From positions 1,240,001 through 1,304,000 of the forward strand of contig NC_009712.1 of the NCBI RefSeq assembly GCF_000017625.1: DNA of 64,000 bases. Reading direction: 5' to 3'. The position numbers were made by a program, and so were the translations under genes. The stretch comes from Methanoregula boonei 6A8. GTDB taxonomy: Archaea; Halobacteriota; Methanomicrobia; Methanomicrobiales; Methanospirillaceae. The stretch's first letter is position 1; every line of letters starts with the position of its first letter. The notes beneath the pieces are model-generated. The model saw nothing but the letters and a program-made list of their open reading frames with translations, made no database searches and had not been told where the DNA came from. Of the stretch, positions 5,924 through 35,853 are shown in pieces.

Positions 5924-6585
5924 GGAGCCGATTCCTCAATCAGGATCGTTATAATCTCGTTTATGGCTGCAACTGCCACAGGAGTACCACCCCGTGTCCC
6001 CTCCGTGGAAACGGCGGGGATGTCAATTGTCCGCAGGAGCTCTTTTGATTCTGCTGCATTCACAAAACCCACCGGTGCACCGATCACAACTGCGGGCCGG
6101 ATACCCTCTTTGATCATAGCGCAGACCGTGAGAAGTGCGGACGGAGCGTTCCCGATCACCACAATGGACCCGGCAATCCTGTCGCGGAGTGCGATAAAAC
6201 CGGCAGAACTCCTTGTTATTCCCTGTTCCTGTGCAATATCACTGCCAAAATCGAGTGCGCAGAGGACCTCAGAATGGTGTCCTTTTTTCTGGATCCCGAC
6301 CTGGACCATGCGGATATCGGTAATGATCGGGGCACGGGCTTTAAGTGCGGCCACCGCTGCTGCTACCGGGTCGGCACTGAACCTGAGCAGGTCAGCCATG
6401 GCAAAATCGCCAACCGCGACCGAGCAGCGCTGCCGGACCCGGTCCTCAGGAGTTTTGTTCCCCACCATCTTCCGCGCAAGGGTCCGCGAGGTCTTTGAGA
6501 TCTCATAGGCCTCGGGAGTGGTTGCGCCGGGGTCAATATACGTACTTTCGGTGGTACCCGCGTGGTGTGATGATTCCTTTGACAT
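5920..6585 (-). CDS. cbiC: Cobalt-precorrin-8 methylmutase CbiC
   Basis: 221 residues from the ATG at 6585. Motifs: EAYEISKTSRTLARKM at the N-terminus, then IGNAPSAL, VIGAPVGFVNAAESKE and the glycine-rich STEGTRGGTPVAVAA near the C-terminus, all characteristic of precorrin-8X methylmutases. It moves the methyl from C11 to C12 to give cobyrinate. The start was chosen because GGAGG lies 10 bases upstream; this places the first 53 bases inside the 3' end of cbiH. Longer versions add unconserved residues. The gene ends in an ATGA overlap with cbiD. Confidence 0.9.
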   Translation of the reverse strand: MSKESSHHAGTTESTYIDPGATTPEAYEISKTSRTLARKMVGNKTPEDRVRQRCSVAVGDFAMADLLRFSADPVAAAVAALKARAPIITDIRMVQVGIQKKGHHSEVLCALDFGSDIAQEQGITRSSAGFIALRDRIAGSIVVIGNAPSALLTVCAMIKEGIRPAVVIGAPVGFVNAAESKELLRTIDIPAVSTEGTRGGTPVAVAAINEIITILIEESAP

Positions 6586-7321
6586 TGTTACCCATCCTCC
6601 ATATCCTGCTTTCGCTCCCGCCAATAATCACGGTCGTGTGCATGTCAACATCGTCCATGACATGTTCGATCTCCCCCAGTGTCACGATAACAGGGTCAGC
6701 CTGTCCCTCGCGAAGGGCATTTTTCACTATCGCTACCGGCACGGTTGGCGGATAATATTTCCGGGCATGCTCGATTGCAAGGGCAAAGTTGTGTGGCCGG
6801 CCATGGCTCCGGGGATTGTAGAGCACGACAGGAATCCCGACCGAAAATGCTGCATCGAGTCTCTTCTCGATCACTTCGAGCGGGGTTAAAAGGTCCGAGA
6901 GGGAAATGACCGCAAAATCCCCGGAGAGCGGGGATCCCACAAGGGAAGCGGCGGCGTTTGCTGCCGTAACGCCCGGCACGATCTCAACCGGGATCTCCGC
7001 CCCCGAGTGCTCCAGCACTTCGAGCACAATGCCGGCCATGCCGTACACCCCGGCATCACCGCCAGATACCATGGCAACAGTGTGGGACTGTGCAAGCTCG
7101 ATCGCTGTTTTTGCCCGCTCCACCTCTTTTCCCATCGAGCTCCGGATTACCTGCTTTCCTTCGAGCAGGGAGCCGATGGAGTCAAGGTAACTGTCGTTTC
7201 CGATGACATATTCCGCACGGGCAATCGCGTGTGCGGCCCGGACCGTCAGGTATTCCGTGCGGCCGGGACCAATTCCCACGATAAAAAGGCCGGGTGCAGG
7301 GTGCTCAGCGGGCAATGGCAA
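6533..7321 (-). CDS. cbiH: Cobalt-precorrin-3B (C17)-methyltransferase CbiH
   Basis: 262 residues. Tetrapyrrole methylase with IVGIGPGRTEYLT at the N-terminus, MVSGGDAGVYGMAG and VPGVTAANAAASLVGSPL, then VVLYNPRSHGRPH, the set typical of CobJ/CbiH ring-contraction enzymes. In the anaerobic pathway it methylates C17 and contracts the ring, forming the lactone later opened by CbiG. Its 5' end overlaps the cbiG 3' end by 17 bases and its 3' end overlaps cbiC by about 50 bases. The last 30 residues form a polar tail beyond the core fold. Confidence 0.92.
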   Translation of the reverse strand: MPLPAEHPAPGLFIVGIGPGRTEYLTVRAAHAIARAEYVIGNDSYLDSIGSLLEGKQVIRSSMGKEVERAKTAIELAQSHTVAMVSGGDAGVYGMAGIVLEVLEHSGAEIPVEIVPGVTAANAAASLVGSPLSGDFAVISLSDLLTPLEVIEKRLDAAFSVGIPVVLYNPRSHGRPHNFALAIEHARKYYPPTVPVAIVKNALREGQADPVIVTLGEIEHVMDDVDMHTTVIIGGSESRIWRMGNNVKGIITPRGYHRKYVY

Positions 7322-8177
7322 TGGTCACCTTTGAAAAAACTTTCTTGTTCATAATCAGTTCCCGGTGCTTTGAGACAGCAAGTGCACAGGGTTCGGCAAC
7401 GCCGATTAAACCGAGCCTCTTTGCCTTCGATGGAGTCCGGGGCACCTGCGCGTTAATAGTGTCATCGTCAAGGAATATTAAAGGGGCTGGGATTGAGGCA
7501 ACAGCGTCGATGAGCCCGGTCTCGCTGCATTTCTTTGCGGTCGTTGCAAAGAGCATGACCTCATCTTTTTGTATTCCCGCTTCTGCAAAAGCCCCGTTTA
7601 TCGCCCGGGTCACTTCGGCTTCAGTCACGCCCTTCCGGCAGCCGATCCCGACTGCATACGTGCCCCGGCGGATAAGTATGGAGACATCCGGGCCGGCAAG
7701 AACGATCCCGGGCCCGGGAACAGAATACACCTTGGTATTCCCGTCAAGGATCCCCGCATTGACCGCCCGTGTGGAGTCGTGGTTCACGATATCGCGACCC
7801 TCACGCTCTGCAATTCCCTCCACCGAATCATGCCCGGTAGCCTCAGTGGCCGTTGAGATGACCGGGATAAGCCCCAGTGCTTCAAGTTCCTTTGCAAGGG
7901 CATTTGCCCCATGGTGGCCACCAAGCAGAGGTACTGCATAGGAAAAATCCGGTGTGACCACAACAACAGCCGGGTCGGTCCACTTGTCCGAAAGCAGGGG
8001 AGCAATGCCCCGGACCGCGATGCCCATGGACATCAGCGCAACAATCCGCCGGGCTTTGGGAAAAACCTCGGCAAAGATTTCGGCCCGGTACTCCATAACA
8101 TCCGCATCAAGGAGTGCCGCAATCCGCCGGGCATCAGGCAGGAAGCGGGCCAGGGCGATCACAACCGAGTCTGTCAT
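7305..8177 (-). CDS. cbiG: Cobalt-precorrin-5A hydrolase CbiG
   Basis: 290 residues covering the three usual CbiG regions: an N-terminal domain with ALMSMGIAVRGIAPLL and PLLGGHHGANALA, a central linker, and a C-terminal domain with GIGCRKGVTEAEV and a Lys-rich AKKCSETGLIDA segment. It opens the delta-lactone of cobalt-precorrin-5A and releases the two-carbon fragment. The ATG overlaps the cbiF stop as ATGA. Its place between cbiF and cbiH is common in archaeal cbi operons. Confidence 0.92.
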   Translation of the reverse strand: MTDSVVIALARFLPDARRIAALLDADVMEYRAEIFAEVFPKARRIVALMSMGIAVRGIAPLLSDKWTDPAVVVVTPDFSYAVPLLGGHHGANALAKELEALGLIPVISTATEATGHDSVEGIAEREGRDIVNHDSTRAVNAGILDGNTKVYSVPGPGIVLAGPDVSILIRRGTYAVGIGCRKGVTEAEVTRAINGAFAEAGIQKDEVMLFATTAKKCSETGLIDAVASIPAPLIFLDDDTINAQVPRTPSKAKRLGLIGVAEPCALAVSKHRELIMNKKVFSKVTIAIAR

Positions 8178-8920
8178 GAATAGAGGTACGAAGTGATGTG
8201 GCCTTCCTTTCTGGTGCCGACAACTCCCCCGATAAGGAGCAGGGCGGTATGCTCGATCCCGGCTGCACGTGCCTTTGCCGCAATATCGGCAACATTGCCC
8301 CGGACAATCTTCTGGTCAGGCCACGAGGCATGGTACACCACCGCAGCCGGGGTTTCCTGAGGGCAGGTGAGTTTTGCCGTGATCTCTTCAAGTTTTTCCG
8401 TGCCAAGGAAAACCACCAGGGTAGTGTTGAGGAGCGAGAATTCAGCAAGCTGATCTTTTTCCAGGGTCTTACCCGCCGGCCGGGTCACGATCACTGATTC
8501 GGAAACGCCCCGGAGGGTGAGCTGGGTCTTAAGTGCTGCTGCAGCGGCAAAGAGTGAGGAGACGCCGGGCACAACCTCCGTTGCCACGCCCCGGGCCTCA
8601 AGGATCTCCATCTGCTCGACAATTGCCCCATAGAGAGCGGGATCGCCCGAATGGAGGCGCACGACCTTTTTCCCGGCCTTTGCATTCTTTTCCAGTGCAT
8701 CGACCATATCATCGAGGTGCATGCCCCAGCTGTCCTGTTTTACGGCAGCTCCCGATTGCTCCACAAGAACAGGGTTCACAAGCGATCCTGCGTAGATCAG
8801 GACATCTGCGGTGTTGACCAGTTCCTGTCCCTTGACCGTAATAAGACCGGGATCCCCGGGTCCGGCACCGACAAACCAGACCTTTGCCCCGGTATCCCGG
8901 GATTTTTTTGCCATGGTCAT
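8174..8920 (-). CDS. cbiF: Cobalt-precorrin-4 (C11)-methyltransferase CbiF
   Basis: 248 residues. VWFVGAGPGDPGLITVKG at the N-terminus, YAGSLVNP, VRLHSGDPALYGAI and VPGVSSLFAAAA are the CobM/CbiF signatures. It methylates C11 of cobalt-precorrin-4. GAGG precedes the ATG at 8920 with nine-base spacing; a second ATG two codons on is less likely. The gene follows cbiL by 2 bases and overlaps cbiG by ATGA. Fold and motifs separate it clearly from SUMT, also in this window. Confidence 0.93.
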   Translation of the reverse strand: MTMAKKSRDTGAKVWFVGAGPGDPGLITVKGQELVNTADVLIYAGSLVNPVLVEQSGAAVKQDSWGMHLDDMVDALEKNAKAGKKVVRLHSGDPALYGAIVEQMEILEARGVATEVVPGVSSLFAAAAALKTQLTLRGVSESVIVTRPAGKTLEKDQLAEFSLLNTTLVVFLGTEKLEEITAKLTCPQETPAAVVYHASWPDQKIVRGNVADIAAKARAAGIEHTALLLIGGVVGTRKEGHITSYLYS

Positions 8921-8922
8921 AG

Positions 8923-9528
8923 TCAGCGCCTCGCGTACAGAACGCTCATGTAATCGGTCTTCTCCGGGATCTTGTCATCCCGGTACACTTTCATATCAGG
9001 AAAGAACATCCGCTCAACGAGAACAAATTCGCGGTATCCCTCTTTTTTGAGGCCGGCAATAATCTTTTGCGGGTGCCGGGCCTTAAGCCGGATCAGGGCC
9101 GAGGGTTCTGCGCCATCTGAAACCACAAAACCGCCATTGAGCGGGACGTCAGCTGCTGCAGCAAAGGCCGTGATTGCACTGATGCCGGGCTCGGTCCGGC
9201 AGGAAATACCCGGGTGATGTTTTTCAAGAATGGAGCAGAGACGCGAGAACGTGGAAAAGAAGTTCGGGTCGCCAAGGATCCCGAAAACCGCAAGGCCCGT
9301 TTCTGCAACAGGGGCGATCTTTTCTGCATTGGCCTCCAGGCACGCCCGGATCCGGTCCTCATCATCGGTCATGGGAAAGTCAAGCATCACGGACTCGCGG
9401 TACGGGGCAACCAGGTCTGCGGCAATCCGGCCCGGGACAAATACGGTGTCTGCCTCTTTGAGCAGCCGGACGGCACGGAGTGTTAAGAGCTCGGGGTTTC
9501 CCGGGCCAAGGCCAAGTCCTACGAGCAT
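8923..9528 (-). CDS. cbiL: Cobalt-precorrin-2 (C20)-methyltransferase CbiL
   Basis: 201 residues, shorter than most bacterial CbiL but normal for methanogens. Motifs: VGLGLGPGNPELLTLRA, FGILGDPNFFSTFSRL and the TEPGISAITAFAAAADVPL stretch. It adds the C20 methyl, the first methylation specific to the corrin branch after cobalt insertion. It overlaps the 3' end of cbiT by 10 bases and is followed after 2 bases by cbiF. Substrate (cobalt-bound versus metal-free precorrin-2) follows from the anaerobic context, not from the sequence itself. Confidence 0.9.
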   Translation of the reverse strand: MLVGLGLGPGNPELLTLRAVRLLKEADTVFVPGRIAADLVAPYRESVMLDFPMTDDEDRIRACLEANAEKIAPVAETGLAVFGILGDPNFFSTFSRLCSILEKHHPGISCRTEPGISAITAFAAAADVPLNGGFVVSDGAEPSALIRLKARHPQKIIAGLKKEGYREFVLVERMFFPDMKVYRDDKIPEKTDYMSVLYARR

Positions 9529-27901: not shown

Positions 27902-28441
27902 TTAGGGCAATCGCACAACTGCGCTTTCCCCGGGCTGTGGACTTCCAGTCAGGCGGGCATTCTCCGGGAATGCACCTACAGCGCTGACAATGGCCCGGTA
28001 AAAGTTAGGGAATGGTGACTGCGAACCCGGGGATAATTTTTCTACGAACCAGACCTTGTCGTACTGCCGGGCCTCATCTTCCAGCATTTCTGACCGGAAG
28101 AGAACAAAATACACAAAAGGTACCGCTTTTCCGGCCTTTCGTGCCTGTTCAAGAAGACTGATTCCTTCCCCGTGTTCAAAGTTGTAATCGGTGATCACCA
28201 CATCGTAATCGATGTACCGCATCTTGTCCAGGGCCTCGCCCACGGTCAGGCAGAGGTCTACGATCATGTTTCCCTGAGTCTCAAGATATTCGCACACGAT
28301 CTCCAGGAGCCGGGGTGATTCGTCCACGTACAGGACTGAAATCGCACGGCTGGCATGAGAGTCCGGCCCCGCAAAAGAAGCGGCCGTAAGGCCGCTTCCC
28401 CTGCTTCCCTGGCTTGCACCGGGATCGTTTACTATTGCCAT
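27902..28441 (-). CDS. Response regulator (receiver domain only)
   Basis: 179 residues from the ATG at 28441, which has GGGGAGG nine bases upstream; three earlier ATGs lie too close to that site. A 30-residue Gly/Ser-rich leader precedes the receiver: ISVLYVDESPRLLEIV, phospho-acceptor Asp in YDVVITDYNFEHGEGISLL, and WFVEK in place of the usual K-P loop. No output domain. It follows cheW by 28 bases and is the last gene of the chemoreceptor operon, so it may take the CheY place, although the acidic pocket (D-E-S) is not typical CheY. Confidence 0.78.
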   Translation of the reverse strand: MAIVNDPGASQGSRGSGLTAASFAGPDSHASRAISVLYVDESPRLLEIVCEYLETQGNMIVDLCLTVGEALDKMRYIDYDVVITDYNFEHGEGISLLEQARKAGKAVPFVYFVLFRSEMLEDEARQYDKVWFVEKLSPGSQSPFPNFYRAIVSAVGAFPENARLTGSPQPGESAVVRLP

Positions 28442-28469
28442 ACGTCTCATCCTCCCCATACCTTTTGGC

Positions 28470-29075
28470 TTATGCCGCAATCTCTTCCGGGGCGGTACTG
28501 GCAAGATCTATCCCGACCTCGTTATCCGAGACCAGGCGTTTTATGTCAATCAGGATGAGGAGCTCGTTTGCATCGCGGTCCTTGATTCTGACACGTTTCT
28601 TGATGATACCAATAATTGCGGAGTTGTTCTGTTCCACTGAGGAGGTGCTCGTATCTACTGCGGACTGGTCGAACGTGGTGACTGATGAAACATTGTCAAC
28701 CATAATGCCGGTCTTGGACCGGGTGATGCTGTCATCAAGGACAATAATCCTGCAGTTCTCATCGCTTGCACCCTCCTTGCGCGGAATATTGAGCCGTTCT
28801 TTTAGGTCGATGATGGTGGTGATCTCCCCACGAAGATCGATGATTCCCTTGATGTAGGCCGGTGTATCCGGCAGCTGGGTAATAGTCTTGTATTCGACTA
28901 CTTCCCGGACATTGAAGAGATCCACGGCAAAGTGCTCTTTACCCAGCAGGAACTCCACGACCTGGACTGTGTTTGCTCCTGCGCCGCTTGTTCCCCGCCG
29001 TAACGCCTCGGCCCGCGACCGGATTGCGGAAGGGGAGAGAGATCCCCCACTACCGTTTTCTGATGTCTTTGTCAT
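28470..29075 (-). CDS. cheW: Chemotaxis adaptor CheW
   Basis: 201 residues. A 35-residue polar N-terminus precedes the CheW fold: VQVVEFLLGKEHFAVDLFNVREVVEYK, LPDTPAYIKGIIDLRGEITTIIDL and the final GVDNVSSV-like segment (GIMVDNVSSVTTF). CheW links receptor signalling domains to CheA. It follows the receptor gene after 20 bases. No cheA is present, so CheW must either couple to a distant CheA or connect the receptor with another kinase. The C-terminus has a longer acidic tail than bacterial CheW. Confidence 0.93.
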   Translation of the reverse strand: MTKTSENGSGGSLSPSAIRSRAEALRRGTSGAGANTVQVVEFLLGKEHFAVDLFNVREVVEYKTITQLPDTPAYIKGIIDLRGEITTIIDLKERLNIPRKEGASDENCRIIVLDDSITRSKTGIMVDNVSSVTTFDQSAVDTSTSSVEQNNSAIIGIIKKRVRIKDRDANELLILIDIKRLVSDNEVGIDLASTAPEEIAA

Positions 29076-29095
29076 ATCTGTTCCCTCCTGTTGGC

Positions 29096-32041
29096 TTACT
29101 GGGCGCTCGCTGTGTTCGATGCCGCGCCTCTGTCTGCGCTGATCCGTACCGATGCATCGACCTTAAACCCTGCGATCTCGTGACTGACATCCTCGACAAT
29201 GGTGTTCACGTTCTGGATGACTTTGGTGATCTGGTCGATGGATGCGGACGCCTCTTCGGTTGCTGCAGCTGCGTCGGTTGCCTCTTTTGCGGTCTCACTG
29301 ATCAAGGTGCTTACGGTTGTGACACTGGCAGTAACTTCTTCGACTGATGCGGCCTGCTCTTCTGCGGATGCAGCTACGCTTGAAATGTTCTTGTTGATGT
29401 CGTCGATCGAGGTGACAATCTTGTTGAATACCTCGAGGGTCTGGGTAAGGGCGCCGCTGCCTTCCCTGACACCATCATTTGCAGATTCCACGGCCTCAAC
29501 TGCACGCTGGGTCTGCTTCTGGAGCTCACCGATCATCTGGCGGATCTTCTCTGCGGAGTTCTCCGACTCCTCGGCAAGCGACTTGACCTCGGTGGCGACG
29601 ACCGCAAATCCGCGGCCTGCTTCACCGGCGCGGGCTGCTTCGATTGCCGCGTTGAGGGCAAGGAGATTGGTCTGGTTTGCCAGGTTTGCAATCAGGACCA
29701 CGATGTCCCCGATCTTGTCCATCTGGGACTTGATATCAAGGATAATCGTGTTAACCTCTGCGGAGGACTTGGTGATGCCGTCCATTCCCCGGTCTGCCTT
29801 ATTTGCGAGATCGGTACCTTTCCGGGAAAGTTCTTCTGACTGTTTGGCAAGCTGGGCAACTGCATCAGCACGGGAGGCAACTTCCTGGACCGTGTTTGAG
29901 AGGTCTTCCATTGCCTTGAGTACCTGCTTGATTCCTTCCCCGCTCTTGTCTGCATTCGAGCTGACTGCACCGGCGTTCTTTGCCACCTGGTTTGAACCGG
30001 CAGAGACCTCCTCTGCGCTTGCGCTGGCTTCCTGGGCGCTCGCTGAAAGTTCGTTGACACGGTCATTGACCTTGCTGAGTGCCGAAGAAACCTGGATACC
30101 CACGTTATTGAGGGATTTCTTGAACCGGATAAAGTCCCCGCGGACCTGGAGGTCCTCGTTTACGCGGGCGGTAAAGTTCTGCTTTGCGTACTCATCTGAG
30201 ATGCGCATGGCCTCGTTTACTGGGTCGATGACTGCATCGAGCGTGTCGTTAACACCGTCAACGATCTTCTTAAAGTCACCCTGGTGCTTGGATGCATCGG
30301 CACGGGTCCCGAGTTTTCCTGCAACCGCTGCTTCCGAGAGCATGTTTGCATCTTTAACCAGGAGATTGACAGCGTCAATGCACTGGTTGAGGTTGTTTTT
30401 GATAACGTTGAAGTCGCCGTTGTAGTTGTCAGTGATCCTTGCCGGGATGTTGCCTTTGGAGATCTTGTCTACATAATCAGCAGCTACATTGAGCGGACCG
30501 ATGACCGAGTCAAGGCAGTCATCAACACCCTGGACAATCTTCCTGAAATCACCCTGGTGTCGGGATGCATCAGCGCGGGTATCGAGTTTGCCTTCAACTG
30601 CCGCCTTACTGAGCATGTTTGCGTCCTGGACCAGGAGATTGACAGCGTCAATGCACTGGTTGAGGTTGTTTTTGATAACGTTGAAGTCGCCGTTGTAGTT
30701 GTCAGTAATCCTTGACGGGATGTTGCCCTTGGAGATCTTGTCTACATAATCGGCAGCTACGTTGAGCGGACCGATAACGGCATCCAGGCAGTCATCAACA
30801 CCCTGGACGATCTTCCTGAAGTCACCCTGGTGTTTGGATGCGTCAGCACGGGTGGAGAGCTTGCCCTCAATTGCTGCCTTGCTGAGCATATTTGCTTCCT
30901 GGACCAGGAGGTTGACTGCGTCGATACACTGGTTGAGGTTGTTCTTGATCTCGTTGAAGTCGCCGTTGTAGTTGTCCGTGATCTTGGCCGGGACATCTCC
31001 CTTGCTGATCCGGTCTACATACTCTGCGGCAACGTTGAGCGGGCCGATCACTGCGTCAAGACAGTCGTCAACACCCTGGACAATCTTCCTAAAGTCGCCC
31101 TGGTGTTTGGATGCATCAGCACGGGTATCGAGTTTACCTTCAACTGCTGCCCTGCTGAGCATGTTTGCATCTGCAACAAGGAGGTTGACTGCGTCAATAC
31201 ACTGGTTGAGATTGTTCTTGATCTCGTTGAAGTCACCGTTGTAATTGTCGGTGATCTTGGCCGGGACATCTCCCTTGCTGATCCGGTCTACATACTCTGC
31301 GGCAACGTTGAGCGGGCCGATGACCGAGTCAAGGGTCTGGTTAACGCCCTCAACGATCTTCCTGAAGTCGCCTTCATGTTTGGATGCATCAGCACGGGTA
31401 TCGAGCTTACCCTCGACTGCGGCCTTGCTGAGCAGGTTTGCATCCTTTACCAGGAGGTTGACTGCGTCAATACACTGGTTGAGATTGTTCTTGATCTCGT
31501 TGAAGTCACCGTTGTAATTGTCGGTGATCTTGGCCGGGACATCTCCCTTGCTGATCCGGTCAACATACTCCGCTGCTACATTGAGCGGGCCGATGACCGA
31601 GTCAAGTGTATCGTTGACGCCCTGGACAATCTTGTGGTAGTCTCCCTGGTGTTTGGATGCATCAGCACGGGTATCAAGTTTGCCCTCGACTGCGGCCTTG
31701 CTGAGCATGTTCGCATCTGCGACAAGGGCCTTGAGATTCGTGCGCAGGAGTTCGATATTGTCGTTGATAAACGCCTTCTTGCCCGGGAATTTCTCCAGCG
31801 GTGCTTCGAAGTTGCCCTTGGCAAACTCGGCAACAGTTGCCATAGCCTTCTTCTTTACCGTGATGTGCCCGTTAACCATGTTGTTGATACACTGGGCCGC
31901 GGTCTTTGCCGAACCCTGGTACTTTTCGACCGGTATAAGTACATCAATATCCCCTTTGTCGTGCGCGTCCGACATGTGCTCTATATCGACAAGCAATGTG
32001 TTGAACTCTTTTCCCAGTTTCATTTCATCAATAAACGTCAT
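29096..32041 (-). CDS. Soluble poly-HAMP methyl-accepting chemotaxis protein
   Basis: 981 residues from the ATG at 32041, which has GGAGGGG six bases upstream; the ATG at 32056 lies within the upstream ORF. No membrane segment. After about 110 residues come five nearly identical 91-residue units (each [17 protein letters not shown] at its start and [20 protein letters not shown] at its end) and a partial sixth, each resembling a pair of HAMP domains. The signalling domain follows with the hallmark tip [20 protein letters not shown]. It is the likely cytosolic receptor for the adjacent CheW. Signal unknown. A Ser/Ala-rich tail ends the protein. Confidence 0.92.
30362..31726 (-). repeat. Five tandem 273-bp coding repeats in the receptor gene
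   Basis: The five 91-residue units are encoded by near-identical 273-bp DNA units; stretches such as the one around CGTTGTAATTGTCGGTGATC recur at exactly this spacing. A sixth, diverged unit continues to about 30240. Such repeats can change number by recombination and may be misassembled from short reads. Confidence 0.85.
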
Positions 32042-32219
32042 TTTTTTCCCCTCCATTGTTGAATAACCAGATTCCTTTCATCGCAAGCGGCAGCGGGCCA
32101 AAGTCCAGCGTGCCGTCAATATTTGTTCGTACCTCGATACCGTCCGGGACTGCATCCGGATCCGCAATCCTGCCGGATGTTGTTTCCCAGCCGGATTCTG
32201 TGATTGCACAATTCTCCAT
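32028..32219 (-). CDS. Small ORF 3 upstream of the chemoreceptor
   Basis: 63 residues, acidic, soluble, with Gly/Asp/Pro-rich turns ([20 protein letters not shown]) and no cysteine pair of note. GGGGAGAGAAG precedes the ATG. It begins 12 bases after ORF 2 and its end overlaps the receptor start at 32041 by 14 bases, so translation is likely coupled. No family recognised. Together with ORFs 1 and 2 it forms a leader operon of tiny proteins before the receptor. Confidence 0.5.
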
Positions 32220-32231
32220 TCTTCTCTCCCC

Positions 32232-32405
32232 TCATTCTGCTACAACAAACGCAAGACTGATACGGAAGTGTCCGCTTCCGGCCAAGAGAACTGCCTTCCG
32301 GTTCTCCTGGCCCGGTTCCGGGATTCCATGAGCCTCTGCAGCCTTCATGAAAATGTAGCGGGCCCAGAGATCCTGTGTTGTTGTATCCCTCCCAATGTGA
32401 CTCAT
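32232..32405 (-). CDS. Small ORF 2 upstream of the chemoreceptor
   Basis: 57 residues: MSHIGRDTTTQDLWARYIFM begins it, with an amphipathic helix, and a hydrophobic C-terminal strand (FRISLAFVVAE). The ATG overlaps the stop of ORF 1 as ATGA. Its stop is followed after a ribosome site by ORF 3. It is too short for confident family assignment, and no motif is recognised. Evidence is the overlap, the ribosome sites around it and codon use like the host. Confidence 0.5.
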   Translation of the reverse strand: MSHIGRDTTTQDLWARYIFMKAAEAHGIPEPGQENRKAVLLAGSGHFRISLAFVVAE

Positions 32406-32629
32406 GGTCTCTCGCTCAGTTCTCCAACCTGAGTTCTGGCAGGAAACTGCACGCTGACGGTCTTTTCCGGTATGCAGTCCGGAAATGCTCCAAGAGTACA
32501 GTAGTCGTCAAATTTCGTACTGAGTTCATCCAGCACGCCAAAGTACGCGTGCAGGTCGGCAGCAACAGAATGACCCTGTATGACCCTGCCGATCGAGTTC
32601 TGATGAACAGTTTGTGTTTCCCCTGACAT
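32402..32629 (-). CDS. Small ORF 1 upstream of the chemoreceptor
   Basis: 75 residues, soluble, with a helix around VAADLHAYFGVLDELSTKFDD and two cysteines (CTLGAFPDC). CTGGAG lies upstream of the ATG at 32629. First gene of the receptor transcript; an AT-rich divergent promoter region (32640-32843) separates it from the plus-strand kinase gene. No family recognised. If the ATGA overlap with ORF 2 arose by frameshift, ORFs 1 and 2 may once have been one protein. Confidence 0.5.
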   Translation of the reverse strand: MSGETQTVHQNSIGRVIQGHSVAADLHAYFGVLDELSTKFDDYCTLGAFPDCIPEKTVSVQFPARTQVGELSERP

Positions 32630-32639
32630 GTTCTGCTCC

Positions 32640-32843
32640 AGTTCTGTGACTGCCGGGATACCCTCTTTTGTTCAGCAGTTTGGGAACTAAATAACAATAA
32701 TCATCAATAATATTTAATATTTTCTACTTATGATGATTACTAAAAGCGTTTAGAATAGTTAGTCGAATACAATGATTTGTAATAGTCACATTAATGATAT
32801 TTATAAATAATGAGCACCGATATTTGAGATAAGGAGGGTAGGT
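32640..32843. promoter_or_regulatory. Divergent AT-rich promoter region
   Basis: This 204-base gap is strongly AT-rich. On the plus strand TTTATAAAT (32800-32808) lies about 40 bases before the kinase ATG, a good TATA box. On the minus side the region before ORF 1 holds TTAAATATT and TATTTAG. The shared region suggests that the receptor operon and the HTH-kinase may be co-regulated. Confidence 0.45.
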
Positions 32844-34523
32844 ATGGAAAGGGAAAGCGAACAGGAACGGATCCGGGAGTTATTAAAGGGCAATCCCAAG
32901 GGCCTGACTATTGAGGAAGTCTCAAAGAAGCTTGGGCTTAACAGGTCCACCGCAGCAAAATACCTGACCTCCCTGGTAGTCTCCGGCCAGGCGGATATGC
33001 GGACGCTGGGGCCGGCAAAGCTCTTCTACCTCACCCAGCGTCTCCCGATGACCAACCTGCTCTCGCTCGCATCCGATCTTATCCTCATTCTTGACCAGGA
33101 TCTTTTTATCCAGGAGGCAAACAATCCGTTCCTCTCCTTTTTCCACCAGACCAAGGCGGCACTCAAAGGAGTACGGATAGAGCACTCCCCGCTTGCATCG
33201 TATTTTGGCGGTGAGCACCTTGCAGCCCTCACAAAAGCTTTGGAAGGAGAGGAGACTGCATTTGAGACCCGGTTTGAGAACGAGGGAAGTATCCGGTATT
33301 TCCGGACAAAATGTATTCCCCTTGTCTTTGAGGAAGGTGGGAGGGCGGCAGGTATCATCTTTGAGGATATCACAGAGATGAAGCAATACCAGCACGATCT
33401 GGAAGAACAGGTACGGCTTCGGACTGCGGAACTGGAGCAGACCAATACTGCTTTAAAAAAAGAGATCGCGGAGCACACCCGGGCAGAAGAGTCCCTGGCC
33501 AGGAACGAGCGTCGGCTTCGCCGTGCTGAGGGCGTGGCGCATTTTGGCAACTGGGAATATTACCATGAGGAAAAGAGGGTCTTTGTGTCGGAGGGCATGC
33601 GAACCCTGTACGGCATTTCCGGCAATGAACCAACCCTCGACGAACTCGGGCAGATCACGCTTCCTGAATATCGGCCCGTTCTTGGAGCTGCCGTCAGGGA
33701 CCTGATCCGGGAGAATAAACCCTTCAATGTTGAATACCGGATCCAGAGGCCGGTGGATGGCACGGTAGTAGACGTCCAGTCCATTGCAGAATATGATCCG
33801 GCACGAAAGGCTGTTTTTGGTGTGGTTCATGATATTTCCGAGACCAAACGGGCAGAAGACGCGATCCGTAAGGCCACCAAACAGATACTGCTCTTAAACA
33901 GCGTGACCCGGCACGATATCCTCAACCAGCTCAACACCCTGCTCGCTTATCTTGATCTCACCAAAAAGTCCGCAGAAAGCAACCGGGCCATACTTGATCT
34001 TGTTCAAAGGGAGCAGAGCGTTGCAGAGACTATCCGGCGCCAGATCACATTTACCCGGGACTACCAGAGCATCGGGATCCAGCCGCCGCAATGGTACAAT
34101 GTAAAGGCAACGGTAGCGCATATCCTTGAGACCACCGATCTCGGAGGGATATCGGTTTTTATAGACACCGCAAACCTTGAAGAGTATGCCGATTCCCTGA
34201 TCGAGAAAGTCTACGCCAACCTTATTGATAATACCGTACGCCATGGCGGGAATGTTTCAGAGATACGTCTCAGTTATACCTACCGGGACGAGGATCTTGT
34301 TATCCTGTACGAAGATAACGGGACCGGGGTCTCCCCTGATGATAAGGAACAGATCTTTGAGAGGGGTTTTGGCCACAATACCGGCTACGGCCTGTTCCTG
34401 GTTAAAGAGATCCTGTCCATTACCGGTCTTTCCATAAAAGAGACCGGTCATTATGGGAAAGGGGCTCGCTTTGAGATCCTTGTTCCCAAAGGGGCCTATC
34501 GTTTCCCGGAACCTTCATTATAG
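32844..34523 (+). CDS. HTH-PAS-PAS-histidine kinase
   Basis: 559 residues, soluble. Residues 1-66 form a winged helix-turn-helix (GLTIEEVSKKLGLNRSTAAK), then a PAS domain at about 70-185, a coiled coil, a second PAS at 226-340, the His motif VTRHDILNQLNTLLAYLDL and an ATPase domain with NLIDNTVRHGG, YEDNGTGVSPDD and GYGLFLVKE. GGAGG sits eight bases upstream. A DNA-binding domain on a histidine kinase is unusual; it may bind near its own divergent promoter or help the kinase act on transcription directly. It faces the receptor operon, so it may be part of the same circuit. Confidence 0.88.
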   Translation: MERESEQERIRELLKGNPKGLTIEEVSKKLGLNRSTAAKYLTSLVVSGQADMRTLGPAKLFYLTQRLPMTNLLSLASDLILILDQDLFIQEANNPFLSFFHQTKAALKGVRIEHSPLASYFGGEHLAALTKALEGEETAFETRFENEGSIRYFRTKCIPLVFEEGGRAAGIIFEDITEMKQYQHDLEEQVRLRTAELEQTNTALKKEIAEHTRAEESLARNERRLRRAEGVAHFGNWEYYHEEKRVFVSEGMRTLYGISGNEPTLDELGQITLPEYRPVLGAAVRDLIRENKPFNVEYRIQRPVDGTVVDVQSIAEYDPARKAVFGVVHDISETKRAEDAIRKATKQILLLNSVTRHDILNQLNTLLAYLDLTKKSAESNRAILDLVQREQSVAETIRRQITFTRDYQSIGIQPPQWYNVKATVAHILETTDLGGISVFIDTANLEEYADSLIEKVYANLIDNTVRHGGNVSEIRLSYTYRDEDLVILYEDNGTGVSPDDKEQIFERGFGHNTGYGLFLVKEILSITGLSIKETGHYGKGARFEILVPKGAYRFPEPSL

Positions 34524-34563: not shown

Positions 34564-35154
34564 TTACTCTTCTTTTGCATTCCGAAGTGAGCGGGCAAGG
34601 ACCGCGTTACAGTCAGTAAGAAGCGGCGGGCCGTGCCCAAAATAGATTGCAGCAACATTCCTGCTGCAGATCATTTCAAACGCCTGGATAAATTCCGGTG
34701 CATATGTGGCATCGGAATTCCGTATAATAAGCGGCGTATCCCCGGCAAAAAGGACAGCGTCATCCGCACAATACAGGCAGATGGAATCATGGCTGTGCCC
34801 GGGTGTGGGAATTACTTCGCATTCCCGGTCGCCAAGGAAGAGATGTTCGCCCCCTTTGAGCACGACATCAACCCCGGAAAGAGAAGATGCGGCTGCGTAC
34901 ACCACCGGTGAGAAAAGTTCCCGGATCTGCGGCAGCAGTGAGACATGATCGTAGTGGCTGTGGGTCAGGATCACCTGTTCCACCCGTTTCTTGCCTACAC
35001 CGGTAGATGCAGACATAAGATCTTCAAGGATTGCCGGGTCACGTCCGACATCAACCAGCGTGTTTTTGTCAGCAATCGCATTCCGGGTGCCGGTCACAAG
35101 GTAAACGTTTGACGTATAGATCTGGTCCCGGGTGGAAAGGTTGCGTATTTTCAT
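34564..35154 (-). CDS. Metallo-beta-lactamase-fold hydrolase
   Basis: 196 residues. The zinc motif THSHYDH (HxHxDH) is at about residue 64, a further His in PTPGHSHDS, the Asp in FAGDTPL and a last His in YFGHGPP, so all metal ligands are present. Typical of glyoxalase-II-like and related MBL-fold hydrolases; substrate unknown. The ATG overlaps the cheR stop as ATGA, so it is made together with the methyltransferase. Context may link it to signal turnover, but that is inference. Confidence 0.85.
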   Translation of the reverse strand: MKIRNLSTRDQIYTSNVYLVTGTRNAIADKNTLVDVGRDPAILEDLMSASTGVGKKRVEQVILTHSHYDHVSLLPQIRELFSPVVYAAASSLSGVDVVLKGGEHLFLGDRECEVIPTPGHSHDSICLYCADDAVLFAGDTPLIIRNSDATYAPEFIQAFEMICSRNVAAIYFGHGPPLLTDCNAVLARSLRNAKEE

Positions 35155-35768
35155 GTCGGTCCGGGGATTTTTCTGAAAACCTGGGCATTTGCCACAACCT
35201 GTTCGAAATGATCGCCAAGCTCCGGCGGCATCTTCTGGGTCTGCTCGGTAATAAGGAAACAGCCGTCGTCAAGTGCATCATAGAACATTTTAAGGACCCG
35301 AATCCGCTGTTCTTCGGTGAAATGCAACAACACATTTTTGCAGACAATCAGGCCCATGTTGGGACGGACTGCCTCGTAGGTCAGGAGATCTTTTCGTTCA
35401 AAGGTCAGGCGCTTGCGGATCTCGTCAGAGATCCTGTAGTACCCTTCACGGCTCTCATCCGGGGCAAAGTATTTTGCAAAGATATCCTTTGGGATCCGTT
35501 CGAGTTCTACCTGGGGATAGGATCCGTCTTCGATAATTTTTGCAAACAGGTTGCTTGAATCGATATCTGTGCAGTAAAGCCGGACGTTTCGGAATATCAT
35601 CTGGCCCATATTCTCCCTGAGAAGGATAGCAATGGTGTAGGGTTCCTGGCCCATGGCACACCCGGCACTCCAGATGTTGATGTATCTCCGGCTCCCGATC
35701 ACCGGGAGAACGTATTCACGAATCATATCTAGGGTCTGGTAATCCCGAAAAAAATACGTAAATGCCAT
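35151..35768 (-). CDS. CheR-type methyltransferase lacking the N-terminal domain
   Basis: 205 residues from the ATG at 35768 (AAAGGA upstream). It carries the CheR SAM-binding domain: WSAGCAMGQEPYTIAILL, then YCTDIDSSNLFAKII, GYYRISDEIRKRLTF and NVLLHFTEEQRIRVLKMF. The usual four-helix N-terminal CheR domain, which helps bind receptors, is absent; the protein starts at TYFFRD. It may methylate glutamates of the poly-HAMP receptor 3 kb away, but no CheB methylesterase is seen. Coupled by ATGA to an MBL-fold gene. Confidence 0.85.
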   Translation of the reverse strand: MAFTYFFRDYQTLDMIREYVLPVIGSRRYINIWSAGCAMGQEPYTIAILLRENMGQMIFRNVRLYCTDIDSSNLFAKIIEDGSYPQVELERIPKDIFAKYFAPDESREGYYRISDEIRKRLTFERKDLLTYEAVRPNMGLIVCKNVLLHFTEEQRIRVLKMFYDALDDGCFLITEQTQKMPPELGDHFEQVVANAQVFRKIPGPT

Positions 35769-35853
35769 GGAGTCCTTTCCGCTATGTCTGATCTGACCGT
35801 GAGTACCATATATGGGTTTTGCGGATCCCTGCAAAATCATGGCCCCGGCCTAG

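Follow-up and report, generated by a model that had tools for sequence, protein, structure and literature searches.

A putative small-protein family, restricted to Methanoregula and associated with its chemoreceptor operons

Few signalling machines are known as well as chemotaxis complexes, and many of the receptors of archaea are soluble. Here we describe a chemoreceptor operon of Methanoregula boonei 6A8 that is headed by three very small open reading frames (ORF1, ORF2 and ORF3) and lies in a stretch of 64,000 nucleotides, termed the window (positions 1,240,001-1,304,000 of a genome of one contig, 2,542,943 bp). Among described systems, the chemotaxis and archaellum system of Halobacterium with CheF shares with M. 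boonei the proteins CheA, CheY, CheB, CheC, CheD, CheF and CheR, receptors and CheW, and some receptors are soluble in both organisms (PMC2666748, PMC3579733). M. boonei differs in that its CheW and CheR are encoded outside the che cluster, beside receptors, and no counterpart of its small ORFs was found in Halobacterium. FrzCD of Myxococcus xanthus resembles the window receptor in being soluble and in carrying HAMP units before the signalling domain, but the window receptor has at least six such units (PMC12077210). MetOD3 and MetOD5, two small output domains found in response regulators of Methanoregula, are likewise genus-restricted signalling parts; they were described as domains joined to receivers, whereas ORF1 stands as a small gene of its own within receptor operons (PMC5847659). 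Also close are operons of the Methanoregulaceae, found in the present analysis, that encode the permease SatP, a PAS receptor and CheW. In common with the window operon these have an ORF1-type lead gene, a divergent kinase with helix-turn-helix (HTH) and PAS domains, a receptor followed by CheW, and solubility of that receptor. The window operon differs in lacking SatP, in having ORF3 and a receiver, and in its receptor being poly-HAMP, not PAS.

The new part of our finding is the tiny genes. ORF1 by its sequence belongs to a real, undescribed and genus-restricted family tied to chemoreceptor operons, and its most plausible role is that of a small accessory to the receptor complex. For the locus as a whole, we favor a satellite receptor operon of a conventional CheA system, with ORF1 as an accessory and the divergent kinase in transcriptional control, and give this reading a probability of roughly 55%. 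An earlier note on this DNA had placed six genes, in the order ORF1-ORF2-ORF3-receptor-CheW-regulator, on one strand, and so they lie:

32402-32629, minus strand: ORF1 (ORF call), 75 amino acids; Methanoregula-restricted family with a conserved helix, core LxxLSxKLDEYFAL
32232-32405, minus strand: ORF2 (ORF call), 57 amino acids; weak likeness to the second ORF of Methanoregula sp. UBA247 and of locus L079
32028-32219, minus strand: ORF3, 63 amino acids; its 3' end holds the receptor's ribosome-binding site and start codon
29096-32041, minus strand: poly-HAMP chemoreceptor, predicted soluble (Pfam HAMP_2 repeats and signalling domain of methyl-accepting chemotaxis proteins, MCP)
28470-29075, minus strand: CheW (PF01584, E 4e-30)
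27902-28441, minus strand: stand-alone receiver protein (PF00072, E 3e-9); likely start ATG 28441, with a TTG ORF from 28504

Coupling of the small genes was only partly as the note had claimed: ORF1 and ORF2 share 4 nucleotides (ATGA), but ORF2 and ORF3 are separated by 12 nucleotides and do not overlap. The first in-frame ATG of the receptor is at 32056, inside ORF3; the ATG at 32041, with GGAGGGG in front, is the better candidate, and a receptor beginning there overlaps ORF3 by 14 nucleotides. Codon usage gave ORF1, ORF2 and ORF3 scores of 0.01, 0.19 and 0.21 bits per codon, against −0.44 ± 0.33 for 45 size-matched spurious ORFs of the window, that is, 1.4 to 2 standard deviations over the spurious mean. 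Small ORFs in the same gene order recur in a second species, UBA247. The three proteins had been called unknown, and indeed none matched Pfam or NCBIfam, none matched CheC, CheD, CheF or CheX (Pfam, E 0.1), and we found no account of them in the open literature.

We searched 232 Methanomicrobiales genomes with the single small-ORF sequences, which yielded one clear relative, UBA247 (genome G160). A first single-sequence search with ORF1 against genome contigs found nothing, and its relatives emerged from genome-wide searches and profiles. We discounted weak ORF1 matches in G197, along with weak ORF3 matches in G172 and in eight further genomes; two weak matches that we inspected were antisense to or inside long unrelated genes, and the other weak ORF1 and ORF3 matches were mostly in longer open frames. 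A profile built from nine ORF1 relatives, with the window copy excluded, matched ORF1 and nothing else in the window (E 0.002 among 3426 six-frame segments), and the summed profile score of ORF1 was reached by none of 1000 shuffles. Searching 108 genomes of the taxonomic family genome-wide with the profile gave a family of 18 copies in 13 genomes, all Methanoregula. Fifteen of these copies sit in intact chemoreceptor operons of three arrangements, as first or last gene: 11 head SatP-receptor-CheW operons, with one more in UBA247 and one in the window, and two are the final gene of MCP-CheW-receiver operons, overlapping or right after the receiver (L167, L168). The SatP operon copies share the core LxxLSxKLDEYFALRTF. 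Pairs of ORF1 copies showed ratios of nonsynonymous to synonymous differences (pN/pS) mostly of 0.3-0.6, with synonymous sites near saturation, and an AlphaFold2 model predicted one helix, at residues 22-45. Comparison of the family with Pfam gave chance matches only and no related family; a PDB profile search returned a single match (E 0.47), taken as chance, and no related solved structure. The earlier note had allowed that the small ORFs might not be conserved, which did not hold: the ORF1 family is conserved, and so is ORF3. As to its suggestion of small-protein partners, what these counts support is association with receptor operons. Very short genes of chemotaxis operons, often dropped by annotation, can thus be conserved, and a tiny conserved protein whose gene sits with those for soluble receptors, a putative acetate permease and a DNA-binding kinase offers a concrete and testable candidate for the way in which such receptors obtain or tune their input.

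cheA and cheB are absent from the window, as had been noted, but the reading of a system without CheA is not supported, since a full CheA is encoded about 89 kb from the operon. It has all five domains (Hpt, P2, H-kinase_dim, HATPase and CheW), and its dimerisation domain occurs once genome-wide, so that by sequence CheA is single. The cluster around it encodes CheD, CheC, CheB, CheY, CheF, an archaellin and ArlI/ArlJ-like proteins; this archaellum-che cluster has no cheW. CheW domains are found at four genomic places, which are this one CheA and three CheWs, each adjoining a receptor. CheA would therefore depend on CheW from receptor operons such as that of the window. A cheR gene that the earlier note had missed lies 2.5 kb from the operon. 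On this gene content of operon and cluster, we take the receptor-CheW part to be conventional chemotaxis of the archaeal kind, served by satellite receptors and very probably working with this CheA. The note had proposed a kinase other than CheA, against which speaks the genome's sole CheA, clustered with CheF, CheY, CheB, CheC, CheD and archaellum genes and with no CheW of its own. It had also named what would refute this, a che operon elsewhere whose CheA binds this CheW: such a cluster with CheA exists, and its CheA may bind this CheW.

In the scheme we favor, the soluble poly-HAMP receptor and CheW would enter core complexes with the single CheA, which would hand phosphate to CheY, with CheF providing the connection to the archaellum. 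The receptor would be adapted by CheR from the window and by CheB, CheC and CheD from the cluster. The divergent HTH-PAS kinase would sense a cytoplasmic cue and govern transcription of the operon, the amphipathic helix of ORF1 (LxxLSxKLDEYFAL) may dock on the receptor or CheW and tune input to CheA, and ORF3 may link its own translation to that of the receptor. Of these steps, we infer that the receptor joins the array, that the kinase regulates the operon and that ORF1 docks.

Several points weigh against this scheme. The cytosolic receptors of Halobacterium bound CheW2 in complexes that contained no CheA, so the window pair could likewise lack CheA (PMC3579733). Two SatP operons are without ORF1, as are 26 of the 39 Methanoregula genomes searched, so receptors do not require it in order to function. 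Two copies are in seemingly decayed loci (L165, with a receptor-like remnant, and L164, on a short contig) and one is an orphan. A bolder version is more tentative, and we hold it less probable than its negation: ORF1 might be the founding member of a novel class of accessory proteins in archaeal chemosensing, a helical peptide of about 55 residues that plugs into soluble receptor-CheW complexes, links them to SatP acetate uptake and the HTH-PAS kinase, and replaces a membrane sensor domain.

A different role for the small ORFs would be as translated leaders that set translation of the receptor, their peptides being inert. The ATGA overlap of ORF1 and ORF2 fits this, and so does ORF3, which was found in two genomes only and whose 3' end holds the receptor's ribosome-binding site and start in both M. 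boonei and UBA247. A leader peptide should always stand ahead of the gene it controls; the ORF1 relatives of L167 and L168, placed last after receptor, CheW and receiver, do not, which argues against a pure leader-peptide role. Conservation of ORF1 is also at the amino-acid level, as the pN/pS ratios indicate. We therefore consider inert leaders unlikely. As to ORF3 itself, its sequence is conserved with one relative, being 51-55% identical to its UBA247 counterpart (E 2e-18) and directly before the receptor in each; none was found in viral contigs, and its AlphaFold2 model had a mean pLDDT (predicted local distance difference test) of 47 and was uninformative. ORF2 has weak likeness to the second ORFs of UBA247 and L079, which hold the equal operon position (scores reached by 6 and 16 of 1000 shuffles, respectively). 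A second ORF of TGMDEM type in SatP operons was rejected as an ORF2 homologue, its scores being at shuffle level.

The operon of UBA247 is ordered ORF1-ORF2-SatP (PF01184 permease)-ORF3-receptor-CheW, a variant of the SatP operon type. This ruled out that ORF1-3 are pieces of one frameshifted gene, as they are separate there with SatP between ORF2 and ORF3. By searching genomes for families of the permease and the receptors, and then retrieving SatP neighbourhoods, we obtained 13 operons of SatP, PAS receptor and CheW in 11 Methanoregula genomes, including M. boonei itself (L011), and three more in another genus of the family:

L011:8248-10879 (M. boonei), L065, L068, L077, L079, L080, L099, L103: SatP-PAS receptor-CheW loci
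L114, L116, L120, L131, L133-L135, L137: further SatP-PAS receptor-CheW loci

The receptors of all 16 are predicted soluble. In the Methanoregula operons one or two small ORFs lie upstream of SatP, the first of which matches ORF1 in 11 of 13. The operon of SatP (GPR1/FUN34/YaaH family), soluble PAS receptor and CheW is thereby conserved in two genera and is a candidate for taxis towards acetate or towards the cell's own acetate uptake. For the window operon, which has no SatP, any connection to acetate would come from gene order in relatives only.

The window receptor has a clear MCP signalling domain (PF00015, E 4e-43), and neither a transmembrane segment nor an external sensor domain was found in it by hydropathy or by a search for the four-helix-bundle (4HB) sensor. 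Its top 19-residue hydropathy was 1.34, against 2.98 for the UBA247 receptor, which retains a 4HB transmembrane sensor. The two receptors resemble each other in their first 13 residues and in their HAMP and signalling parts, the window receptor being without the 4HB module. Sensor module and SatP were probably lost on the M. boonei side. The genome encodes four receptors, whose hairpin regions align gap-free, a point in favor of the CheA scheme; none has a clear transmembrane segment, the one borderline value (1.68) falling within PAS domains. M. boonei chemotaxis may accordingly sense internal cues only. The four MCP loci are at 1091951, 1269303, 1648121 and 1651583, all predicted soluble. 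The UBA247 receptor (L019:5973-9288) lies in two frames that meet within the HAMP repeats (5973-7244 and 7135-9288), from either a repeat assembly error or a genuine frameshift.

Such losses could also reflect ongoing decay, with the window operon surviving as a relic whose small ORFs are left over. UBA247 does hold both SatP and the 4HB transmembrane receptor, ORF1-ORF2 remain intact in decayed loci elsewhere (L164, L165), and the window receiver seemingly lacks the usual switch residue. Receptor and CheW are intact, though, with CheW 75% identical to that of UBA247 (pN 0.16 versus pS 0.77), ORF3 is conserved, and the overlaps and ribosome-binding sites of the operon are intact, which makes a relic improbable. 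The receiver (27902-28441) is 39% identical over 79 amino acids to the post-CheW receiver of L167; its acidic pocket and Asp are present, and the switch Thr/Ser that it seemingly misses is found in the L167 counterpart.

Three features lie upstream of ORF1:

32844-34523, plus strand: HTH-PAS-PAS-HATPase histidine kinase (Pfam), divergent from the operon
32698-32739, no strand: inverted repeat, candidate operator, enclosing the TATA-like stretch in the promoter of ORF1
35151-35840, minus strand: CheR-type methyltransferase (PF01739, E 1e-41)

Besides its N-terminal HTH, the kinase carries two PAS domains and a HATPase domain but no CheW-like one. Kindred kinases, most with the same N-terminal HTH motif, are divergent from the 13 Methanoregula SatP operons, from the MCP-CheW-receiver-ORF1 operons and from one decayed locus. 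A DNA-binding sensor divergent from an operon fits transcriptional control, and judged from its domains and position this kinase is more likely a transcriptional sensor of these operons than a substitute for CheA. We know of no established mechanism by which CheW binds PAS kinases. The proposal of the earlier note, that receptor and CheW signal to this kinase and not to CheA, draws on similar divergent kinases at nearly all related Methanoregula operons and on the CheA-free CheW2-receptor complexes of Halobacterium (PMC3579733), but is very improbable given a kinase without a CheW-like domain, a lone CheA that lacks a dedicated CheW, and a UBA247 operon with no such kinase beside it.

The inverted repeat consists of TAATCATCA and TGATGATTA, separated by N24 and flanking the TATA-like region. 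An element within it (32724-32737, minus strand) reads ATCATCA-NAN-GTAG ahead of an A+T-rich, TATA-like stretch, and a similar promoter element precedes two SatP operons in another genus (L065:7138-7155). A chemotaxis regulon controlled via the TCATCA-GTAG element was rejected, as a genome-wide search found the window site alone. At a further locus (L010:5999-13138), a gene for a ParA/MinD-like ATPase is directly ahead of an MCP-CheW-MCP-CheR cluster; this ATPase possibly positions a soluble receptor array.
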